Notes under the pieces: model-generated
Seen by the model: the letters and a program-made list of their open reading frames with translations, nothing else
What the model was told of the DNA's origin: nothing
The model's database searches: none
Made by a program: the position numbers and the translations under genes
Shown: positions 3,601 to 64,000 of the stretch, piece by piece
How the letters are laid out: the number at the start of each line of letters is the position of its first letter
How positions within the stretch are numbered: the stretch's first letter is position 1
Origin: Escallonia rubra
Lineage: Eukaryota > Streptophyta > Magnoliopsida > Escalloniales > Escalloniaceae
NCBI GenBank assembly: GCA_033065855.1
Contig: JAVXUO010001507.1
Coordinates: 54,098 to 118,097 of the forward strand
Reading direction: 5' to 3'
DNA length: 64,000 bases

Positions 3601-5570
3601 CCTTTTCCAACCATATCCCCCATGTCACGCCACTTCTTTGACCAAGTTTGAGAAACTTCAATGACATGGTGACCCGGTTTCGGATTGCTTACAAGATATG
3701 TAGTTATCTCGAGGAGCTAGAAAGATAAATGTTTGTTAATCACGACTTATTTGGATTGGTTCGTCGCTAAAAGAAGACATTTTTTACTTTTTTGGCAATT
3801 TTTAGAGAGTTAATGTCGGTCAAAACAATGTATTATAGTAATTTTGGCCAAAAATTGGTGTTACATCAACTCTCATAAGATTTGGACAAGTTATAGATTA
3901 AGCAGGGGTTGTTTAATATATATAAAATTCAATTGCAGAAATTGCAGGACTAAAAATTTTACGCTGTTGAATTTCTAGCACCAGAAATAAATGGCATGTT
4001 TTATAAACTAAAAGCTGATGTTTGTGAAAATTGTTTCAACTAACAAATCTATCCTCCCTACTGGAAATGGACATGCCGTTCATATCTAATAGTTTTATTA
4101 TTGTCAAAAGCATGATGGTTATGGGGTGTGGTGATTGTTACGGTGGCGGTGGTCATGAGGTGAGGGTTGTGGTGGTGGTGGTAGTAACGGCTCTCCCGTA
4201 TGGTGTTGGTGACGACAAGCAGTATGCTACAATGGTGGTGTGGTGTGTCATGGCGACACCGATATATTTGTCGTGGTGGTAGTTGAAGTGTGGTGGAGGT
4301 GGTGGTGTCGACACATGGCGTTAGTGGTGTTGAGAATGACGGTGGTATGGTAGTGATGGTACACGGTGATGACAGCTGCGGCATGATGGTGGTGGTGGAG
4401 GTCTTAATGTTCGTATCACCGAAACTAACATCCTTTTATCAGCAAATGGAGATACTCTAAGCATTTCATTAGTTATGTACCCAGGTTCCACGGGCCAAAT
4501 GCATGTGCCAATGGTGATGGTGGTGGTGGTAACGATGCAAGCACCGACATGGTGGCCTGATGGCAATTTTATTCATTTACACAACATTATCCAATAATTA
4601 AGACTTAAAATTAAGCGGTAACGTGACTTAAGATTTTAGTTTACTCAAAGCATATGTTAATTTATAAATATAAATGATATAAAGTTAAGCGTTATCAATG
4701 CATTTATTTGTGAATTATAGAACATTTTCAGGGTGAAGAGCTGAAATACTTCTCATGATGTAACTCCTTTTCTTGTTTTGCGGTTTATTTAATTGAAGTC
4801 TGTGACATCATATTTTAGTAATTTCATCAATGACTAATTTTTAGTCAAACCGTATATAAAAGCCAAGGCAATACACAATCCCATAAAACAATGCTTAGAC
4901 ATGGCAATAACAATGGGCTTCGTGGAAAAATTATGGCAGCTAGATTGTTACAGTCTTGCTCACAACGATAATTAGTAGCCGCTAAATCTATTTAGTGGCA
5001 CATTTCATAGCAACAATTTTTTATCGTTACTAAAAATATTAATCAACCATTAATTAATTGTCGCTATAGAAGCGGTTAACTATTTTCATAAAATCCGAAC
5101 TTTCTAATCAATCAAGTTTTTCATGAAGCAATGGAAGCAAGACGAAAACATGGTCAAGTTCTTCGGTGCTTATTGAATACGTTTCGAAACGAGTCAGTTT
5201 GATCAAAGACAAAGGGTGATATGTTTGAATAGACTTGATTAAGACTTATAGACATTTCTTGCTTGCGTATAGGCTAGGGTGGGTAATCTTATTAAAACTT
5301 TTATAAAGTACTAAAATAATTGTTTTTTTTTTTTTTGGTCAAAACTGTTTCAGAAAATGCTATTCTGGAAACAGATAAATGGAAGCAAAAAAAAAAAATA
5401 AGCCATCCTCAATGAATTTAAATATTAAACGAACCAGAAAATCGGAAAACAAGACCAAACCCATCATGTTATGTTATGTGAAGAGAAGACGTGAGACCTG
5501 CCATGTTAATGCTCCCATGTGTGAATTGAATGCCTTCACATGGCGGTGTCACGTGCCACACGGCCACGCC
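627..5570. other. Intergenic DNA without a recognised gene
   Basis: About 4.9 kb between the two OVATE genes. Short frames on both strands match no family I know and have no coding signature. Repeated TAGCGAC-like words around 2850-2930 and 4960-5080 look like decayed transposon or MITE sequence. A short inverted repeat (AAGCCTCTT/AAGAGGCTT) sits at about 1301-1340 with no known role. Confidence 0.5.
4090..4560. repeat. GGT/GAT-rich low-complexity tract
   Basis: Interrupted GGT, GGTGAT and GATGGTGG triplets dominate about 470 bp. Similar tracts recur at 7.2-8.35, 13.4-14.2, 29.4-29.8, 31.3-31.6 and 53.4-53.8 kb in either orientation, so this looks like a dispersed low-complexity repeat rather than a gene. 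Confidence 0.5.
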
Positions 5571-44208: not shown

Positions 44209-44754
44209 TAGGGCTGTATACGAACCGAGTTCGAGCCGAACAAGGGTGTGTTCGAACTCGGTTCGTATATTTTCATATATGTTTGGGCTTGGCTCGTGTT
44301 CTCTAAGAGCACGAATGCTGATGTTTGAACTTGGCTCAAGTTCGTCGCTGCAGAACTCGGGCTCGGCTCGGCTCGGCTCGTTCGTCTAAATACGCGAACC
44401 GAGTTCAAACTTCAAAATCCGTTCAAGAACTCAAGATTGAACCACAACATACATATCTGAAATCAATTTCAACCACCATACTACAGCCCGTACTAGAATT
44501 GACTTTGGATCGAGACCCTCTTTTGACCAACTTGGTGATATTGAACGGAATTGGAGATCGGACTTCAGATCTGCGATTTTCAATGGCTGCGGCGTGGGAT
44601 CGGAAGTTGTCATGGCTCTGTTGTAGATCTGTAATGTGTGCTTGTGTGTGTGGGTGAGAGATGGTGAGAGCATGTTTGTGCGTGTCTCGTGTGTGTCTCG
44701 TGTGACGAGAGAGAGAGCCAGAAAGGTGAAAGGAGATATGCGTGTCTCTGTGTG

Positions 44755-44800
<46 letters not shown>

Positions 44801-45813
44801 CATCAGTGATCAGAGGACTTGGCTTGTTTGGAGGAGCAGCTGCCATTTGTGGGTCTGTGGCCTGATTTGGGGGTGATCTGGCCTGCGGTGTGACCGCTGG
44901 TCTGGCCGGCGGTGTAGGCGGTGCTCTCGCCGGCGATGTACTTTGTGATGAGAGAGGGGGTAGAGATTGTTTTGATTGTTCGAGTATGTGAGTAAAGGAG
45001 GCGGCATGGGCGGTGAGAGCATGTTTGTGTGTGTCTCGTGTGTGACGAGAGAGAGCCAAAAAGGTGAAAGGAGATAGGCGTGTCTATGTGTGACAAGAGA
45101 GAGAGAGAGAGAGAGAGAGGCATCAGTGATCAGAGGACTTGGCTTGTTTGGAGGAGGAGCTGCCATTTGTGGGTCTGTGGCCTAATTTGGGGGTGATCTG
45201 GACTACGGTGTGACCGCTGGTCTGGCCGGCGGTGTAGGCGATGCTCTCGCCGGCGATGTGCTTTGTGATGAGAGAGGGGGTAGATATTGTTTTGATTGTT
45301 CGAGTATGTGAGTAAAGGAGGCAGCATGGGCGGTGATCTGGCCGGCAGCGTGGGTCGTGCTCTGGCCGGCATCGTGGGTAGTGTTGATGACGACCTGAAT
45401 ACTGAAGTGATGAGAGAGGGGGCACGGCTTCAAGAGTTTTTGACTGTTGCGCGTGTTTTGACTCTTGAGTCTGAGATGAGGAGGATGAATTTGGTGATAG
45501 AGAGAAAGGAAGCATTTGGTGATCCACATGCTAAACGTCCAAGGCAGATATTTTGTGGATATATTGTATTTTTTTAATGAGTAAGCGAACATATGTTCGT
45601 TTACAAGGCTCGGCTCGTGTTCGACTCGTTAAGTAAATGAGCTCTCTTGTTCACGAACATTAATAAACGAACATCATCATGTTCAAACTCGGCTCGTGAA
45701 CCCTAAAATTGTGTTCGTGTTCGGTTCACTTATTACATGAATGAACATGAACGAGTTTCTGAGAGAACGAACAGCGAGCTGTTCGTGAACAACTCTGTTC
45801 ATTTACAGTCCTA
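44209..45813. mobile_element. Non-autonomous hAT element with perfect 8-bp target duplication
   Basis: The left end TAGGGCTGTATACGAACC and the right end, reverse-complemented, TAGGACTGTAAATGAAC form the terminal inverted repeat. GCTAAGTG flanks both sides exactly (44201-44208 and 45814-45821). Subterminal regions carry many GTTCG/CGAAC words, typical of hAT. The interior holds a tandem duplication with a 320-bp period and a short coding-like stretch at about 45410-45545; there is no transposase. Confidence 0.9.
44665..45330. repeat. Two-copy tandem duplication, 320-bp period, inside the hAT element
   Basis: CATCAGTGATCAGAGGACTT at 44801 recurs at 45121, and the following about 200 bp match almost base for base. 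Each unit begins with a GTGTGTCTCGTGTG and (GA)n block ((GA)n at 44757-44799 is longer than that at 45097-45119). Confidence 0.88.
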
Positions 45814-47772: not shown

Positions 47773-48403
47773 GGGTTCGTTTGACAAATTTTTTTTTTTG
47801 GTTTTCAGTTTTTAAAGAGCAGTTTTTTAAAGAGCAGCTTAATTTTTTTTATTTATAAAAACAAGTGGGTGTTTGATAACCCCTTTTTTTTTTTTGAGGT
47901 TTTTTTTTTTGGTGTTTGGTAACCCTTTTTTTTTTGACTTTTTTTTTTTTGTGGTTTGCGGTGGCGGTGGTGGGGTGTAGCGGTGGTGACCGGTGGTGGT
48001 GGTGGTGGCCAGAGGTGGCTGCCGGCAGTCGCCGGCGGCCGGTGGTCGCCGGCGGCCGGAGGTGGCAGCCGGCAGTCTCCGGCGGTGGTCGCCGGCGGCC
48101 GGAGGTGGCTGCCGGTGGTCGCCGGCGGCCGGAGGTGGCTGCCGGCAATCTCCGGCGGTGGTCACCGGCGGCCGGCGGTGGTCGCCTGAGGTGGCTGCCG
48201 GCGGTGGGAGGGTGGTGGTGGTGGTCTAAGAAAAAAAAAACAAAAGTGAAAAAAAAAAACAGTTTCTGGAGTTTTTTTTTTTTTCTTTTCAGTTTAAATA
48301 CTGGTTTTGAGACTGGAAAAAAAAATGGTTGGCAAACGCTCCTTGTTTTTCAGGTTTTAAAAACTGAAAAAAAAAGAGGAAATTTTTTTTGTCAAACCTA
48401 GCC
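47773..48403. mobile_element. PIF/Harbinger-like MITE with TTA target duplication
   Basis: The left end GGGTTCGTTTGACAAA and the right end, reverse-complemented, GGCTAGGTTTGACAAA form an inverted repeat that extends into T-rich and CAGTTTTTAAA blocks on both sides. TTA flanks it at 47770-47772 and 48404-48406, the 3-bp duplication of this superfamily. The centre is a GC-rich minisatellite, not a transposase. Confidence 0.72.
47990..48225. repeat. GC-rich GGTGGTCGCCGGCGGCCGG minisatellite
   Basis: Irregular tandem copies of GGTGGTCGCCGGCGGCCGG alternate with AGGTGGCTGCCGGCAGTC-type units. Long frames exist on both strands solely because the unit lacks stop codons. Confidence 0.9.
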
Positions 48404-57723: not shown

Positions 57724-59108
57724 TGTTCCCAACCCATATTGGTTAGACCTAATGGCGCGCTAGGGGTCCCACTACGCGCGAACACGTCAACATTGTCAAC
57801 GGTTAATCTTCCAGCGCATCAAACCGGTCAATGCCCGCGCACCCAAGACACGTGTTTTTCTCGCTTCACGTGCTTCGTGTGCGACTTAGACTTTTTTATT
57901 TTGCATTAACGTCGCTCACGCTAGCGCAATCGTCACACCAAGATCACCCAAACACCTTACCAAAAATGTCGACCGACGGCGCAACCGAAGCAACAGGGTC
58001 AACGGGCAAAGGCCTTGGCCCACCCCATGGGGTCGGCCTCGGCCTCACCCAAGACCATGGGGTCGGCCTCGGCCTCACCCAAGGTCATGGGGTCGGCCTC
58101 GGCCTCCCATAGGGGTTTGGCCTTGGCCTTTCCCCCCGTTTCTTCACTCTTCGCGCAAAGTCCTTTTTGCACCGTTTTCGCTTCGTACATGACTCTGGCA
58201 CCTTGTTCGTCATATGGGTACGATTCTTGGTAGCATGCTCATCGCAACACGACTTTCGGATTCGTCATTTCTTATCAAAACACCTACCGACGGTGCGCAC
58301 GAAGTTCACAAAAGGAGAAATTGTCTTGGGCACCAAAAATGGAATTTGGCCATTTGGCCTTGGCCAACCTCAGGGGGTCGGCCTCGGCCTTCCCCAGGCC
58401 TAAGGGTCGGCCTCGGCCATTTTCCCCCGGTGGTTCACCCCTCCGCGCAAACCCCTTTTTCGCACTCTCTTCGCTTCGTACGCTTTGCGCGTGACTTTGA
58501 CACTTCGTTCGTCATGTGAATACGATTCGCATCGACACGCTCGTCGTAGTGCAACTTCCGGATTTGCCTTTGCTTATCAAAACACCTACCGTCGGCACGC
58601 ACGAAGTTCACCAAAGGGGGGAGTAGCCTTGGCCTCCCTTCATGGGAATTGGCCTTATACCTTAGCCACCCCCTAGGGTCGGCCTCGGCCTCACCAAGGG
58701 GTCGGCCTCGGCCTCACCAGGGGTGGTGGCCTTGGCCTCCCCCCCTCAATGTTCGGCCTATGGCCTTCCCTCTTGCGCGCACTTGTTTTCCCGAGTCTTT
58801 GCACCTCCGCGATGTTTACGGATGTTCGTCGTGCATCACCTTACAGACGTTCGTACATCAACTTCACGACGTCCGTCGTCCGTCAACTTCGCGACGTCCG
58901 TCGTCCGTCAACCTCGCGACGTCCGTCGCCCGGGACCACACGCCGCTCCCGCGATGCCCGTCACCCAAAGTCGCGCGTTACAGCCGAATGACCCGTCGCC
59001 GACGACCGCATACTATCACTCCCAACTTTGTCACTACTACATGTTGCATTCATTATCTTGTTATGGCAGGTACACTTAGCTCACATCCTGTCTTCAAGAC
59101 ACACGACG

Positions 59109-59310
59109 CGCGCCCTCGCGCCATTCTCATGATACGTGCCCCGGCACCAAATATTGTTCCGCGACGTTCGTCGCCGCGCCCTTGCGCCATTCTCATGGTA
59201 CGTGCCACGGCACCAAATATTGCTCCGCGACGTTCGTCGCCGCCCCCCTGCGCCATTCTCATGATACGTGCCCCGGCACCAAGTATTGCTTCGCGACGAT
59301 TGTCGCCGCG
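59109..59310 (+). repeat. 66-bp tandem array, about 3 copies, in the LTR
   Basis: Units contain GCGCCATTCTCATGATACGT and GCACCAAATATTG, with point differences between copies; a degenerate partial copy follows. Confidence 0.85.
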
Positions 59311-59388
59311 CCACTTTCACAACACGTGCACCAGGTATTGTCTCGTGCTATAAGCACCGCGCTCATGCGCCACAATCATGTTGCATAC

Positions 59389-59905
59389 TACCGGGATGGG
59401 CTCACAACCTTATAGCCATCGCCGTCTCAATCAAAAGGGAGGCTTCGACCTCGTACCGGGATGGGCTCACAACCTTATAGCCATCGCCGTCTCAATCAAA
59501 AGGGAGGCTTCGGCCTCGTACCGGGATGGGCTCACAACCTTATAGCCATCGCCGTCTCAATCAAAAGGGAGGCTTCGACCTCGTACCGGGATGGGCTCAC
59601 AACCTTATAGCCATCGCCGTCTCAATCAAAAGGGAGGCTTCGGCCTCGTACCGGGATGGGCTCACAACCTTATAGCCATCGCCGTCTCAATCAAAAGGGA
59701 GGCTTCGGCCTCGTACCGGGATGGGCTCACAACCTTATAGCCATCGCCGTCTCAATCAAAAGGGAGGCTTCGGCCTCGTACCGGGATGGGCTCACAACCT
59801 TATAGCCATCGCCGTCTCAATCACAAGGGGGGCTTCGGCCTCCATACCGGGATGGGCTCACAACCTCATAGCCATCGCCGTCACAGTCACAGAGGGCTCC
59901 GGTAC
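59389..59905 (+). repeat. 65-bp tandem array, 8 copies, in the LTR
   Basis: Units start TACCGGGATGGGCTCACAAC at 59389, 59454, 59519, 59584, 59649, 59714, 59779 and 59845. Six are almost identical, differing mainly at one G/A position (CTTCGGCC or CTTCGACC); the last two are diverged. There are no spacers, so it is not CRISPR-like. Confidence 0.95.
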
Positions 59906-60349
59906 GAGGACCCCTCGCCACGGACTCGGAGCACTGAGATGCGACCATGTCCACTCGCATTACTGTCAATCGTCGACATCACACGGGCAATGACCCTCGG
60001 GTCACTCCGGGACGGGAGCAGGTCCTTGGAGGGCATCGCGCCTAGTCCGCCTGGCGGTTGGCTACAGGGGTAACCCTCACCACTGTCAGGTTATCTGCGC
60101 GTCTCTTGACGCACCTCATGGGATTCAGTAAGGGCTTGGATTGGTGGCTGGGGCAACGGGTTTACTCTGACCATGCCGTCATGGTATGGTCAGTCTTCTC
60201 AGACAGGCAGAGCGACGCTGTGCGAGGCGGGCAACGCGAATTTGGGAACCGGCAGTCCAACGGAGAACCGGTATTTTGGGACCCCCCTGGTGACGTGTCA
60301 CTCCCGGGGGACGACATGTGGCACTTTATGACATAAGCACATTGTTCTC

Positions 60350-60357
60350 TATAAATA
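60350..60357 (+). promoter_or_regulatory. TATA box of the LTR promoter
   Basis: TATAAATA sits about 350 bp before the LTR end in non-repetitive sequence. Transcription would start roughly 30 bp downstream, giving an R-U5 of about 320 bp. Confidence 0.65.
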
Positions 60358-60712
60358 GTGAACTTTACAACTCAAAAGAGGACTTTTGGCTTTTCTTACA
60401 AAAATCACTTTCTCACTCTAGAATTTGGGAGCTCTTGGATTCTAGTGAGAGAAACGTAACTTTGGACCGTAACTTCGGACCGTAGCATTGGACCCTGACT
60501 TGGACCCTGACTCGGACTATCGACTGCCGGCCCTGTTCGTCTTAGCTTTGCCTTCGCAGCACTGCCATTCCTCACGGCCCGTCTGAGAAGCCTTGCCCTC
60601 AGCCCTTACTCCGTCTTTGCTGTCTCCCACTTTGTATACTTGGAAGCTGACACGGACTGCAGCCTTTGTGGCACCTCCACGTAAGTACGAACCCAATTCC
60701 GTGGCATCATTT

Positions 60713-60730
60713 TGGCGACTCCGCTGGGGA
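60713..60730 (+). other. Primer-binding site
   Basis: TGGCGACTCCGCTGGGGA, six bases after the LTR end. Tat/Ogre-type elements carry near-identical sites, reported as complementary to the 3' end of a tRNA-Arg; the tRNA assignment is from family knowledge. Confidence 0.75.
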
Positions 60731-60776
60731 GGTGAGCATCGTACTGCAGTCTTTCTACCTTCCACACTTAATCTCC

Positions 60777-63614
60777 ATGGCTAGACAACGAAGAGTTACG
60801 AGGGCTGCCAGCCGGGGCCTTATCCATGCCGTTCAAGAAGAGGACCACACAGGTGAACAGGAGGGGACCAGTGCTGTGCGTCCCCAAGACCAGCCGCAAA
60901 CTACCGCACCTGACATACAAGTTGCGGTCAGCGCGGCCATCCAACAGTTTTCGCCCGCTATAACCACTCTTATGACGGCCGTGATGGAAATGCAAAAGTC
61001 CATACAGGCAATGGCCTCCCAACAAACCATTGCACCAGTCCAACCCCATGGACCTGAGTTGGCTCTTGACGTCGCTCAGGCCCCAGTGTCGCGACCACCG
61101 CCGCCGCAATCAACCAGACCATTGGCGGTAGGACTTGCGACATCTTCACCTCATACAGCTGCTGCACTGCATCCCGTGATGCCATCACGCCGACCTCAGG
61201 CAGACCTTGGACCCGTGCTGCAACAGACCCACCCTGTCCTCGCACCTCGGCGTATGCCGGCGCGAAGTTCGTCTGAAACCCATGACTCCATTGAGATGGA
61301 ACCTAACCCTTACTCAACCGAACAACATCAAACCAATGCCCAGGCAGTGGACATGTCCCGCCCAACCACCCATGCCCATATACAATTACCACCACAAGCC
61401 CCTGTCATATATCAACCCTCCGTTGCACCTGTCCACCAAGTTGCTCCTTCTGGGGGCTCGGGAGCTCGTGGCATCCCAGCCAGTCACCACCCTTTAACCG
61501 TCCATGATGACCCGTCTCCCAACTATGTCACTCGTTCAGACTTGGAGACACTCATCCATCGCTTGTCACAAAGCTCTACGCCTCATCCCTCTGCCCACCT
61601 GACGGGCCATGCCCCATATGTCAATGATGTTGCCACCATACCTTATCCCCCGAAGTACAAACAACCAGCCTTTGTGCTCTTCAACGGACGTGAGGGCAAC
61701 GCCCGTGAGCATTTGACAAGATTTGCAGGCTCATTGGAGCAGTATGGCCCGGGAGACAGCTTGAAGTTGAGGGAATTCCACAAGTCCCTTACAGGCTTGG
61801 CCTACACGTGGTACCACCAGATCCCTGCGGGGACTGTCCACGCATGGAACGACATGGTCCAATTGTTCTTAGACAAGTTCCATTACGAGGCCGAACGCGT
61901 GAGTGTTGTTGATATTGCTGGCATCCGCCAGAACCAAGGGGAAGACTTGAATGAGTACGTGCACCGTTTCCATCTCAAATGCCTTGAGTGCACGGACTTC
62001 AGCAAGGACGAGACGTTGGTTCCCATATGCATAAAAAACATGACTGATATATACCGTGTGCATATCGAGAATCTGCAGTTGAGGTCATGGGGACACCTCA
62101 AGGAAACAGCCCGCCGTACTTACGAGACGGTCGGTCATGTCAAGCCATGGAGGCCTCGCCCGCAGAATGCGCTGCTGGCCTCAGCTGACACATTCAACAA
62201 CCAGCGCAACAGCAACGGCACCAGCAGCAACAACATCAATAACCACACTGGTTTTAAGCGTCAGTTCTCGGATGGGGACCAACGCCCCGACAAGCGGCGA
62301 CAGCAAGAGACTCCGCCCGCCTTTCCGTGTGATTTGAATATAGTAAAAGGACTCCTGGCAGAATGGGTCGCCAATGATAACAACTTCAAGTTGCCACCTG
62401 TGAGGATCCCCATCACGGACGAAGAAAGAACAAGGCCTAACTACTGCCCTTACCACCAGGCCCTTGGACATCCCCTCAAGAACTGCAACGCATTGCGAGC
62501 TATCTTCGCAAGAAAGGTCGCGACGGGCGACCTACAGCTGCGGAAGCATCACGACGTGCGGAAGAACCCGTACCCGAATCATGGCAACAACAACCGCGAG
62601 CATCAGGTGCTCATGGTTACGGCCGACCACGTCGAGCCGCGCGTCCCCGAAGCTTCTGCGGAAGTCTCCCCTATGGCCACAACTTGTGTACCTTCTACCC
62701 CCCAGCCAGCATCCTCAGCTGGACGAATGACGAAGATCAAAGACTTCTTTGATGAAATGGGGTTTTCACCCGCAGCGCGGACATATCTCTCGGACTGTTT
62801 GATCGAGGTCACTACCGGCCTCGGGCCCGAATGCTTCGCCGCCCAGGCCGAGCTCAAGCACATCCCTTCCACCGCATTCATTTTCTCAGGCGATGACTCA
62901 CCGCCGATTGAGCATCATAATCGGCCGCTATACCTTGAATGCACTGTCAACGGCACCGGCTTCCGCCGCGCCTTGGTAGATTGCGGCGCCTCGATCAATA
63001 TCATCCCCCTCATTACTTTGCAGCGGGCCGGTATACCGCCAAGAAAGATCATTCGGGACCCCATCAAAATCACTGGCTTTGGGCAGGGCCCCCAGTCCAC
63101 TCTTGGCCACATTACTGTCGACCTAATGGTCGGAACTGTCCGGCGCGACACCACTTTCCATGTGATAGATAGCGAGTCTTCCTTCCACCTCTTACTTGGG
63201 CGACCTTGGATCCATGTCAACAAGGCTGTTCCCTCGACGTACCACCAGTGTGTGAAACTGGTGGCCGGTCCTGCGGGGCATGAGGTAGCGGTAACCATCC
63301 CCGCAACCAAGGCCCCTTTCGAGTGCGCCGAGTCTTATTTTGCCGAGGCCTCCTTCTTCACCGAACTTGCTGCAGATAATGAGAATGCCACTCACATCCA
63401 CTCCACCAAGCTACCAAATTGGGATGAGCTGTGTGGGAACAAGCCACACAAATCCAAGTCCAAGAAAAACAACAAGAGCAAAGCATCCACCTCAACATCA
63501 CCATTAGATGCCCCTACCATCTCCCCGCCTTCGTCCCCCAAGTCCAAGAAGCATAAGGTTGAAGCCACCTTCCAACGTGTCATCATAGATGGAAGGGTGA
63601 TCTACCAATTATGA
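60777..63614 (+). CDS. Gag-protease polyprotein of the Tat-type retrotransposon (945 aa)
   Basis: Gag packages the element's RNA; the protease cuts the polyprotein. The frame opens earlier (60666), inside the LTR and across the primer-binding site, so ATG at 60777 (MARQRRVTRAASRG) is the sensible start. Residues 1-290 are Pro/Gln/Thr-rich. The retrotransposon gag domain is at about 301-458 (LTGLAYTWYHQIPAGTVHAW; RQNQGEDLNEYVHRFHLKC). A knuckle-like CPYHQALGHPLKNC is near 556-569. An aspartic protease is at about 717-830, with active site LVDCGASINIIPL (Asp at about 735) and LLGRPWIH near 806-813. The Lys/Ser-rich tail (KSKSKKNNKSKASTSTS) precedes the stop TGA at 63612-63614, after which the same frame continues into pol. 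No internal stops. Confidence 0.93.
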   Translation: MARQRRVTRAASRGLIHAVQEEDHTGEQEGTSAVRPQDQPQTTAPDIQVAVSAAIQQFSPAITTLMTAVMEMQKSIQAMASQQTIAPVQPHGPELALDVAQAPVSRPPPPQSTRPLAVGLATSSPHTAAALHPVMPSRRPQADLGPVLQQTHPVLAPRRMPARSSSETHDSIEMEPNPYSTEQHQTNAQAVDMSRPTTHAHIQLPPQAPVIYQPSVAPVHQVAPSGGSGARGIPASHHPLTVHDDPSPNYVTRSDLETLIHRLSQSSTPHPSAHLTGHAPYVNDVATIPYPPKYKQPAFVLFNGREGNAREHLTRFAGSLEQYGPGDSLKLREFHKSLTGLAYTWYHQIPAGTVHAWNDMVQLFLDKFHYEAERVSVVDIAGIRQNQGEDLNEYVHRFHLKCLECTDFSKDETLVPICIKNMTDIYRVHIENLQLRSWGHLKETARRTYETVGHVKPWRPRPQNALLASADTFNNQRNSNGTSSNNINNHTGFKRQFSDGDQRPDKRRQQETPPAFPCDLNIVKGLLAEWVANDNNFKLPPVRIPITDEERTRPNYCPYHQALGHPLKNCNALRAIFARKVATGDLQLRKHHDVRKNPYPNHGNNNREHQVLMVTADHVEPRVPEASAEVSPMATTCVPSTPQPASSAGRMTKIKDFFDEMGFSPAARTYLSDCLIEVTTGLGPECFAAQAELKHIPSTAFIFSGDDSPPIEHHNRPLYLECTVNGTGFRRALVDCGASINIIPLITLQRAGIPPRKIIRDPIKITGFGQGPQSTLGHITVDLMVGTVRRDTTFHVIDSESSFHLLLGRPWIHVNKAVPSTYHQCVKLVAGPAGHEVAVTIPATKAPFECAESYFAEASFFTELAADNENATHIHSTKLPNWDELCGNKPHKSKSKKNNKSKASTSTSPLDAPTISPPSSPKSKKHKVEATFQRVIIDGRVIYQL

Positions 63615-63654
63615 CGGTGTCCGGGGGCTCCGGGGGGTTCGCCGCCTAACCCCC
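63612..63654 (+). promoter_or_regulatory. Candidate stop-codon readthrough signal between gag-protease and pol
   Basis: TGA (63612-63614) is followed by CGG and, 18 bases after the stop, by a perfect 7-bp hairpin: GGGGGTT (63633-63639) pairing with AACCCCC (63648-63654) over an 8-base loop. UGA-CGG plus a 3' structure is a recognised readthrough context, and pol continues in the same frame. Confidence 0.6.
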
Positions 63655-64000
63655 TCGACCCCGAACCACTAATGAAGACGGAGTGGTGTTGTACGGCCGA
63701 GCATTGCTTGCCGGACCCTGAGCTCACACCAGGTGCTGCACCACCCTGCTATGAAGACGGCCCTCGACCGCAGGCCGAAGATCTTGAAGAAATTAACCTG
63801 GCTGACCCGGACGAGGAACCTCGACTGACCTACATCGGCACGAGGCTCGCCCCGGGGCGAAGAGAAGGACTGATTACTCTCCTCCGCGAATATCGCGACG
63901 TATTGGCATGGAGTTACAACGAAATGCCTGGATTGGATCCTGCCTTGGTGACGCACCATCTCAACATTGCTAACGGGTTCAGCCCTGTTCGACAGCATCC
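63615..64000 (+). CDS. Start of pol (region before the reverse transcriptase), partial
   Basis: The gag-protease frame continues after the TGA without another stop to the window edge. The first about 45 codons are poorly conserved linker (Pro/Gly/Glu). From 63753 the text is typical of Tat pol: PQAEDLEEINLADPDEEPRL, TRLAPGRREGLITLLREYRD, VLAWSYNEMPGLDPALVTHH, then LNIANGFSPVRQ. Reverse transcriptase, RNase H and integrase should follow outside the window. There is no obvious own start: the ATG at 63672 is in frame but within the linker, which favours expression as a gag-pol fusion by readthrough or splicing. Confidence 0.85.

Follow-up and report, generated by a model that had tools for sequence, protein, structure and literature searches.

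The locus and its reading frames

We analysed a stretch of 64,000 nucleotides (nt) from Escallonia rubra (assembly GCA_033065855.1, contig JAVXUO010001507.1, positions 54,098 to 118,097 of the forward strand), hereafter called the window, whose own numbering is used for all positions below. The 3′ end of the window is the interior of a long terminal repeat (LTR) retrotransposon on the + strand. In this element the gag-protease and pol frames abut in one frame with a single TGA between them and no gap, and the pol frame is open over 63615-63998, up to the window end, which coincides with the end of contig C1189. The features of the two frames and of their junction are as follows.

60777..63614, + strand: gag-protease reading frame, first ATG at 60777, terminator TGA
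61776..62015, + strand: Gag capsid domain Retrotrans_gag PF03732 (Pfam E 4.4e-10, residues 376-455 of the open reading frame, ORF)
62937..63209, + strand: aspartic protease domain PF13650 (Pfam E 2.5e-6, ORF residues 763-853)
63609..63622, + strand: conserved core TTATGACGGTGTCC, proposed readthrough signal (low diversity at -3..+10)
63612..63614, + strand: UGA stop, proposed readthrough site (TGA in 118/122 copies)
63615..63617, + strand: CGG 3′ of the stop, type II context (112/122 copies)
63615..63998, + strand: start of the pol frame (spacer, then N-terminus of the reverse transcriptase, RT), an open frame cut by the contig end

From stop to stop the gag-protease ORF spans 60651-63614 (987 codons) and closes with the codons TTA TGA. 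In a near-identical copy (L003) the pol frame runs for 628 codons to the end of that locus and contains RVT_1 and RNase H domains. An earlier note, made from the letters of the window, had placed a TGA between gag-protease and pol with CGG as the next codon and pol open in frame to the window end, and the coordinates confirm all three points. The window contains 2506 TGA triplets on its two strands; the next three letters are CGG after 25 of them (1.0%) and either CGG or CTA after 49. Type II readthrough, as described in the relevant passages of PMC3542737 and PMC5382211, is characterized by a UGA with CGG or CUA as the next codon and a structure about 8 nt further on.

We propose that this Retand-like family (Tat, Ty3/gypsy) very probably uses programmed type II UGA readthrough to produce Gag-Pro-Pol. 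Ribosomes would make Gag-protease and mostly terminate at UUA-UGA-CGG-UGU, and a minority would insert an amino acid at the UGA and stay in frame. The extended product would be Gag-Pro-Pol, comprising RT, RNase H and onward, and the readthrough would set the excess of Gag-Pro over Pol. We infer that such readthrough occurs, at some rate and with some inserted amino acid, possibly stimulated by the G/C-rich 3′ stretch. It is evident from the copies described below that the family has one frame with one stop, that the stop and the nucleotides next to it are conserved, and that the pol frame downstream is under selection.

The stop and its context are conserved among copies in the same genome

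The genome (566 Mb, 3222 contigs) was searched for copies by several routes. A DNA search gave 486 candidates, 40 of which were scored and had their junction read, window included. A search with the RT N-terminus gave 1944 candidates (150 scored, 60 fetched, junction read in 59, L085 being too short), and a query spanning the junction, in which the stop was written as X, gave 2051 (150 scored, junction read in 20). Three further copies came from a scan for the motif W-x-Y-(D/E)-(D/E)-M-P-G, and the total of junctions read is 122 (99 + 23). Among the first 99 copies, window included, TGA is found in 97 and CGG in 93; the two exceptions for TGA are L064, which has TGC, and L082, which is rearranged at the site and still has an in-frame TGA nearby. 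The 23 further copies are mostly more distant, and 21 of them have TGA (L117 has CGA and L128 has TTA) and 19 have CGG. Taken together, TGA is present in 118 of the 122 copies and CGG in 112. The copies with this stop and context, usually also with the shared frame, are spread over many contigs. Pol is in frame with gag in 80 of the 99 copies, and length changes of 9 and 12 nt between copies preserve the frame. The earlier note had suggested UGA-CGG readthrough between gag-protease and pol, to be checked against sibling copies, and the comparison agrees with this suggestion in the stop, its context and the shared frame.

The same result was obtained when the choice of copies was made independent of the stop. 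A genome pattern with the six letters TGACGG blanked matched exactly at 126 places; among the 100 matches listed, all have TGA and 92 have CGG, the other eight carrying one-letter changes within CGG. The reversed pattern, used as a control for this masked scan, matched at 0 places. The motif scan mentioned above, aimed at other Tat families, returned six places: C1709 was already known, L104-L106 are relatives, and L102 and L103 look unrelated to the window family. No confirmed relatives of pol or protease were found among viral contigs.

Nucleotide diversity drops at the stop. Mean diversity is 0.022 at 63610-63619, compared with 0.141 at 63590-63599 and 0.17-0.24 at 63640-63679; the figure for 63620-63629 comes from a single column and is unusable. 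In an alignment anchored at the stop, mean diversity over positions -3 to +10 is 0.030, and only 5 of the 420 windows of 14 nt in the gag-pro tail and spacer are lower. The share of sites with a variant common to at least three copies is zero for the TGA, 44% for the gag-pro tail, 53% for the spacer and 25% for the RT start.

The pol frame past the stop is under purifying selection. We estimated pN/pS by a crude count on codons with one difference, in two length types comprising 48 and 26 distinct copies. In the pol frame the ratio is 0.46 and 0.38 (for the two length types) at 24-72 nt past the stop and 0.14 and 0.10 from 72 nt to the RT, and RT itself gives 0.15 and 0.14; in shifted frames over the same stretches and RT it ranges from 0.67 to 4.35. 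Similarly, stops in the spacer occur in the pol frame of 7 of 78 copies, compared with 48 and 59 copies in the other two frames. Near the start of Pol (63678-63764) the spacer encodes a cysteine-rich peptide, TEWCCTAEHC...LTPGAAPPCYEDGP, and this stretch is under strong purifying selection.

Long open frames also meet at this stop. Using the query across the junction, TGA lies within the match in 149 of the 150 scored places, the exception being a decayed copy on C1892 (L128); a TGA within the match is not necessarily at the site, as C3221 (L117) has its TGA elsewhere. When stops within the match are read, an open frame of 2000 codons or more results at 18 of the 150 places, 17 of which contain exactly one such stop, a TGA. 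TGA-CGG was read directly at the site in 15 of the 17 copies, the other two being those on C2558 and C376. If the stop is not crossed, open frames at the 150 places scored by RT start reach at most 1320 codons, and the commonest long frames there, of 1257 and 1254 codons, both end at the gag TGA. Thus, none of the pol-side frames is fused to gag. Frames of 1271, 1268 and 1320 codons belonged to out-of-frame copies wherever they were fetched.

Alternative explanations

Pol could instead be made by termination followed by restart, either at a later in-frame AUG or at the AUGA that overlaps the stop in TTATGA. The window has such an in-frame ATG at 63672, which all 40 rows of the nearest copies (the window among them) share, and in 61 of the 79 in-frame copies a Met occurs in frame no more than about 24 codons past the stop. 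In the other 18, the first in-frame Met lies 96-103 codons past the stop, inside conserved RT, so that downstream restart cannot yield a complete Pol in those copies; 15 of the 18 have no stop before that Met. Strong purifying selection acts on the pol frame upstream of the late Met, in both length types alike. For the 61 copies with an earlier Met, and for the window, this argument against restart holds by kinship. As for the overlapping AUG, its frame reaches the RT start without a stop in 13 of the 19 copies whose pol is out of frame with gag, but in the window it ends after 12 codons at the TAA at 63647. We therefore regard restart as very unlikely.

Removal of the TGA by splicing would have a precedent in Ogre, which also belongs to the Tat clade, and in which gag-pro and pol likewise do not form one uninterrupted frame; the region between them is spliced out and averages 274 bp, according to the passages on Ogre in PMC6317226. 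At the junction studied here there are three conserved in-frame GT-AG combinations, of 324, 123 and 105 nt. Nevertheless, the gag-protease and pol frames abut at one stop, leaving no gap that resembles the Ogre intron. The conserved donors look weak by eye (the best is AGG/GTGATC), the conserved acceptors all lack a pyrimidine-rich tract, and the base composition of 63541-63760 is 58% GC and 19% T. The 123- and 105-nt candidates would delete 63615-63701 and the 324-nt candidate the whole spacer, all of it sequence selected as pol coding, and splicing would leave the constancy of the letters around the stop unexplained. Splicing is accordingly a highly improbable source of Pol in this family.

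It is even harder to believe that the stop is just a nonsense mutation passed down in a defective family whose copies are mobilized in trans. Many copies are indeed decayed and carry further stops, but 17 copies retain a frame of 2000 codons or more in which this is the only stop, the pol frame is under selection, and the near-fixation of TGA and CGG contrasts with the divergence at flanking sites. Among the places scored by RT start or by the junction query, no long frame was found to carry a sense codon at the site. Frameshifting would not connect the gag and pol frames in in-frame copies.

Observations that weigh against readthrough

Several observations weigh against type II readthrough as the mode of expression of this family. 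The conserved core ranks only 25th of 675 windows overall (24 are lower), as conservation is equally high in parts of RT and in one gag-pro stretch. No codon-type selection is seen in the first 24 nt past the stop (pN/pS 1.34 and 0.57), which is as expected if the constraint there is at the RNA level, or may reflect the small number of changes. The copies all come from one genome, were partly chosen by hand and include near-identical ones that may be assembly duplicates, and are thus not independent. In Tca2 of Candida albicans, as summarized in an abstract, gag and pol are parted by a UGA with a possible 3′ structure, like those of the window element, yet the junction alone gave no readthrough in yeast. 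The remaining points concern the out-of-frame copies and the hairpin.

Pol is out of frame with gag in 19 of the 99 rows, and some of these copies hold long pol frames (1271 codons). Eight have lost one C from the spacer run CACCCCCCTGC, and about five have lost one G from the G-runs (by eye). The out-of-frame states amount to 18 changes on the tree, and such separate changes make repeated decay or assembly error likely. The simplest reading is that these copies reflect repeated decay or homopolymer assembly errors; a switched mode of expression is possible. The six-C spacer run before CTGCTATGAAGACGG is five C in L045, L050, L051, L054, L064, L076, L078 and L079. In these five-C copies pol is shifted relative to gag, and in most of them it is open in the frame of the AUG overlapping the gag stop; in L060, an additional G restores the frame.

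The 3′ side of the stop contains the following elements of possible structure.

63623..63627, + strand: first G-run, 8 nt past the stop, possible start of a 3′ structure (from sequence)
63632..63639, + strand: 5′ arm of the inner stem, GGGGGTT plus one G (84.8% of cells paired in 50 distinct copies)
63648..63655, + strand: 3′ arm of the inner stem (same pair counts)
63659..63663, + strand: possible 3′ arm of an outer stem, CCCCG, with partner CGGGG at 63622-63626 (93.2% of cells paired)

The perfect 7-bp stem described in the earlier note is present 18 nt past the stop (GGGGGTT at 63633-63639, AACCCCC at 63648-63654, 8-nt loop), and so is the G-run before it, described there as a competitor (63623-63627). 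However, the hairpin is not supported as a conserved fold. Its arms vary among sibling copies, its covariation and stability are at the level of shuffles, and subfamilies fold differently around the G-run. A perfect 7-bp stem also arises when the local 50 nt are shuffled (407 of 5000 times) and is present in 235 of the 3172 overlapping 50-nt windows of gag-pro/pol. Relative to dinucleotide shuffles, the window fold has z = -0.94 for 63615-63672 and z = 0.27 for 63612-63700; over 90 distinct copies the mean z of fold stability is -0.22, with four below -2. In absolute terms the stretch is stable: the 40 nt starting 10 nt past the T of TGA have a mean minimum free energy (MFE) of -15.8 kcal/mol, compared with a mean of -6.8 (sd 3.1) in 152 windows, only one of which, 380 nt upstream, is more stable. 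This stability is due to the G+C content, since shuffles fold equally well.

Pair counts were made on the 50 distinct copies of the 138-nt type. The inner stem with the outer helix was tried as a conserved fold, also with RNAalifold, and left as unproven: 88.0% of cells are paired, against 88.2% in shuffles (341 of 500 as high) and 36.0-69.3% in slid registers. The outer stem pairs are nearly all G-C or G-U and appear in some MFE folds. An alternative fold starting from the first G-run has 78.2% paired, a marginal excess over shuffles (77.1%; 13/500, and 25/500 for covariation), and slid registers give 42.8-62.0%. Pair +25/+34 varies compatibly (U-A 22, C-G 16, U-G 10, other 2; n = 50), which may be a single inherited change. 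The partner strand of the first G-run differs by subfamily: the window forms a long bulged stem, copies without the 9 nt (L029, L030) a one-piece stem, and L043 GGGGGG-UGCG-CCCCCC. The G-rich stretch 8 nt past the stop is itself retained across copies. We regard a 3′ structure at the junction as plausible.

Lineage of the element and comparison with known systems

The 5′ part of the element bears on its lineage.

about 57761..60709 (left end approximate), + strand: 5′ LTR (BLAST match to the 3′ LTR of the copy on C1376)
60710..60730, + strand: primer-binding-site-like TTTTGGCGACTCCGCTGGGGA, directly 3′ of the LTR (near-identical sequence in the C1376 copy)

The two LTRs of the C1376 copy are 96.5% identical over 2664 nt. 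The 5′ LTR in the window contains a TATAAATA box and 65-nt tandem repeats, and its terminal letters are ...GGCATCA. The repeats, of about 65-66 nt, lie at 59109-59908 and are also carried by the LTRs of the C1376 copy. Only 67 nt separate the LTR end at 60709 from the gag ATG at 60777, leaving no ORF before gag, in contrast to Ogre, which has an extra ORF upstream of gag. An additional RNase H after RT-RNase H and before the integrase is common to Retand and Ogre. In the pol piece of L003, an RVT_3 match follows RT_RNaseH at residues 587-627; it is weak (18.7 bits against a cut-off of 21.6) and is truncated where the locus ends. Retand elements have been reported to carry an ORF in antisense orientation between pol and the 3′ LTR. 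In the one copy examined, L109, a 426-codon ORF at 3883-5163 on the + strand runs antisense to the element in that interval. On the antisense ORF, the weak extra RNase H match, the absence of an ORF before gag and the absence of an intron-like gap, the element appears to fit Retand better than Ogre. The Tat label of the earlier note is plausible.

Expression through a leaky stop codon is best known from viruses, and readthrough at the end of gag makes Gag-Pol in murine leukemia virus. In that virus the stop is UAG and the protease lies downstream of it, and its 3′ structure is a pseudoknot; in the window element the stop is UGA and the protease lies upstream. Close parallels are the viruses with type II readthrough (tobraviruses such as tobacco rattle virus, furo-, peclu- and pomoviruses, and alphaviruses), with which the window element shares UGA-CGG, an in-frame polymerase extension and a G/C-rich, pairing-prone stretch from about 8 nt past the stop. 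Unlike these viruses, it is a chromosomal LTR retrotransposon in which the stop marks the Gag-protease/Pol boundary, and an extended stem-loop is only plausible. A tobravirus UGA-CGG oligonucleotide linker gave 9% readthrough in a plant reporter, according to the part of PMC2754532 that treats it, and a strict hairpin may therefore be unnecessary.

Among LTR retrotransposons, a precedent is RIRE2 of rice, a gypsy element assigned to the Retand lineage in a table of PMC6317226. Readthrough in RIRE2 was suggested by Ohtsubo et al. 1999, as cited in a passage of PMC2754532; the likeness covers the lineage and the suggested readthrough, as drawn by that citing text, not the stop or its context. 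Since this suggestion was made already in 1999, the window family is not the first of its kind, and it is a well-supported new example of a known readthrough type. In our literature searches, we did not find comparable comparative support for readthrough in a plant LTR retrotransposon. According to a 2025 survey (PMC11963269), 37 Retand clusters (59%) have gag and pol in a single ORF and the others have them in two; as apparently worded there, the one-ORF share is 29% in the monocot group ('Liliaceae') and 83% in eudicots. Its passages on this point give no account of how Pol is produced in that case. The word 'readthrough' is absent from the text of that survey, and likewise from the text of a 2025 review that names frameshifting and separate transcripts (PMC12786077).

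These comparisons raise a broader possibility, which we hold to be rather unlikely when taken as a whole: type II UGA-CGG readthrough at the Gag-protease/Pol boundary might be the general solution of two-ORF Retand elements and an independent acquisition of the tobravirus/alphavirus signal by a chromosomal plant retroelement, with some subfamilies drifting to AUGA stop-restart or to frameshifting. The trace of such drift would be the pol of some copies lying in the frame set by the overlapping AUG at the stop. As for type II readthrough in the window family itself, this large family supplies a compact and testable signal. If the proposal is true, plants own an endogenous chromosomal readthrough substrate, and the ratio of Gag-Pro to Pol would be set by the leakiness of one codon.

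Other repeats in the window

Two further repeats are found in the window. A G/C-rich minisatellite (GGTCGCCGGCGGCCGGA...) with spacings of 13 and 17 nt occupies 47997-48202, and at 44689-45336 there are two direct repeats of 241 nt (97%) with a spacing of 320 nt, adjoined by GA-rich repeats.

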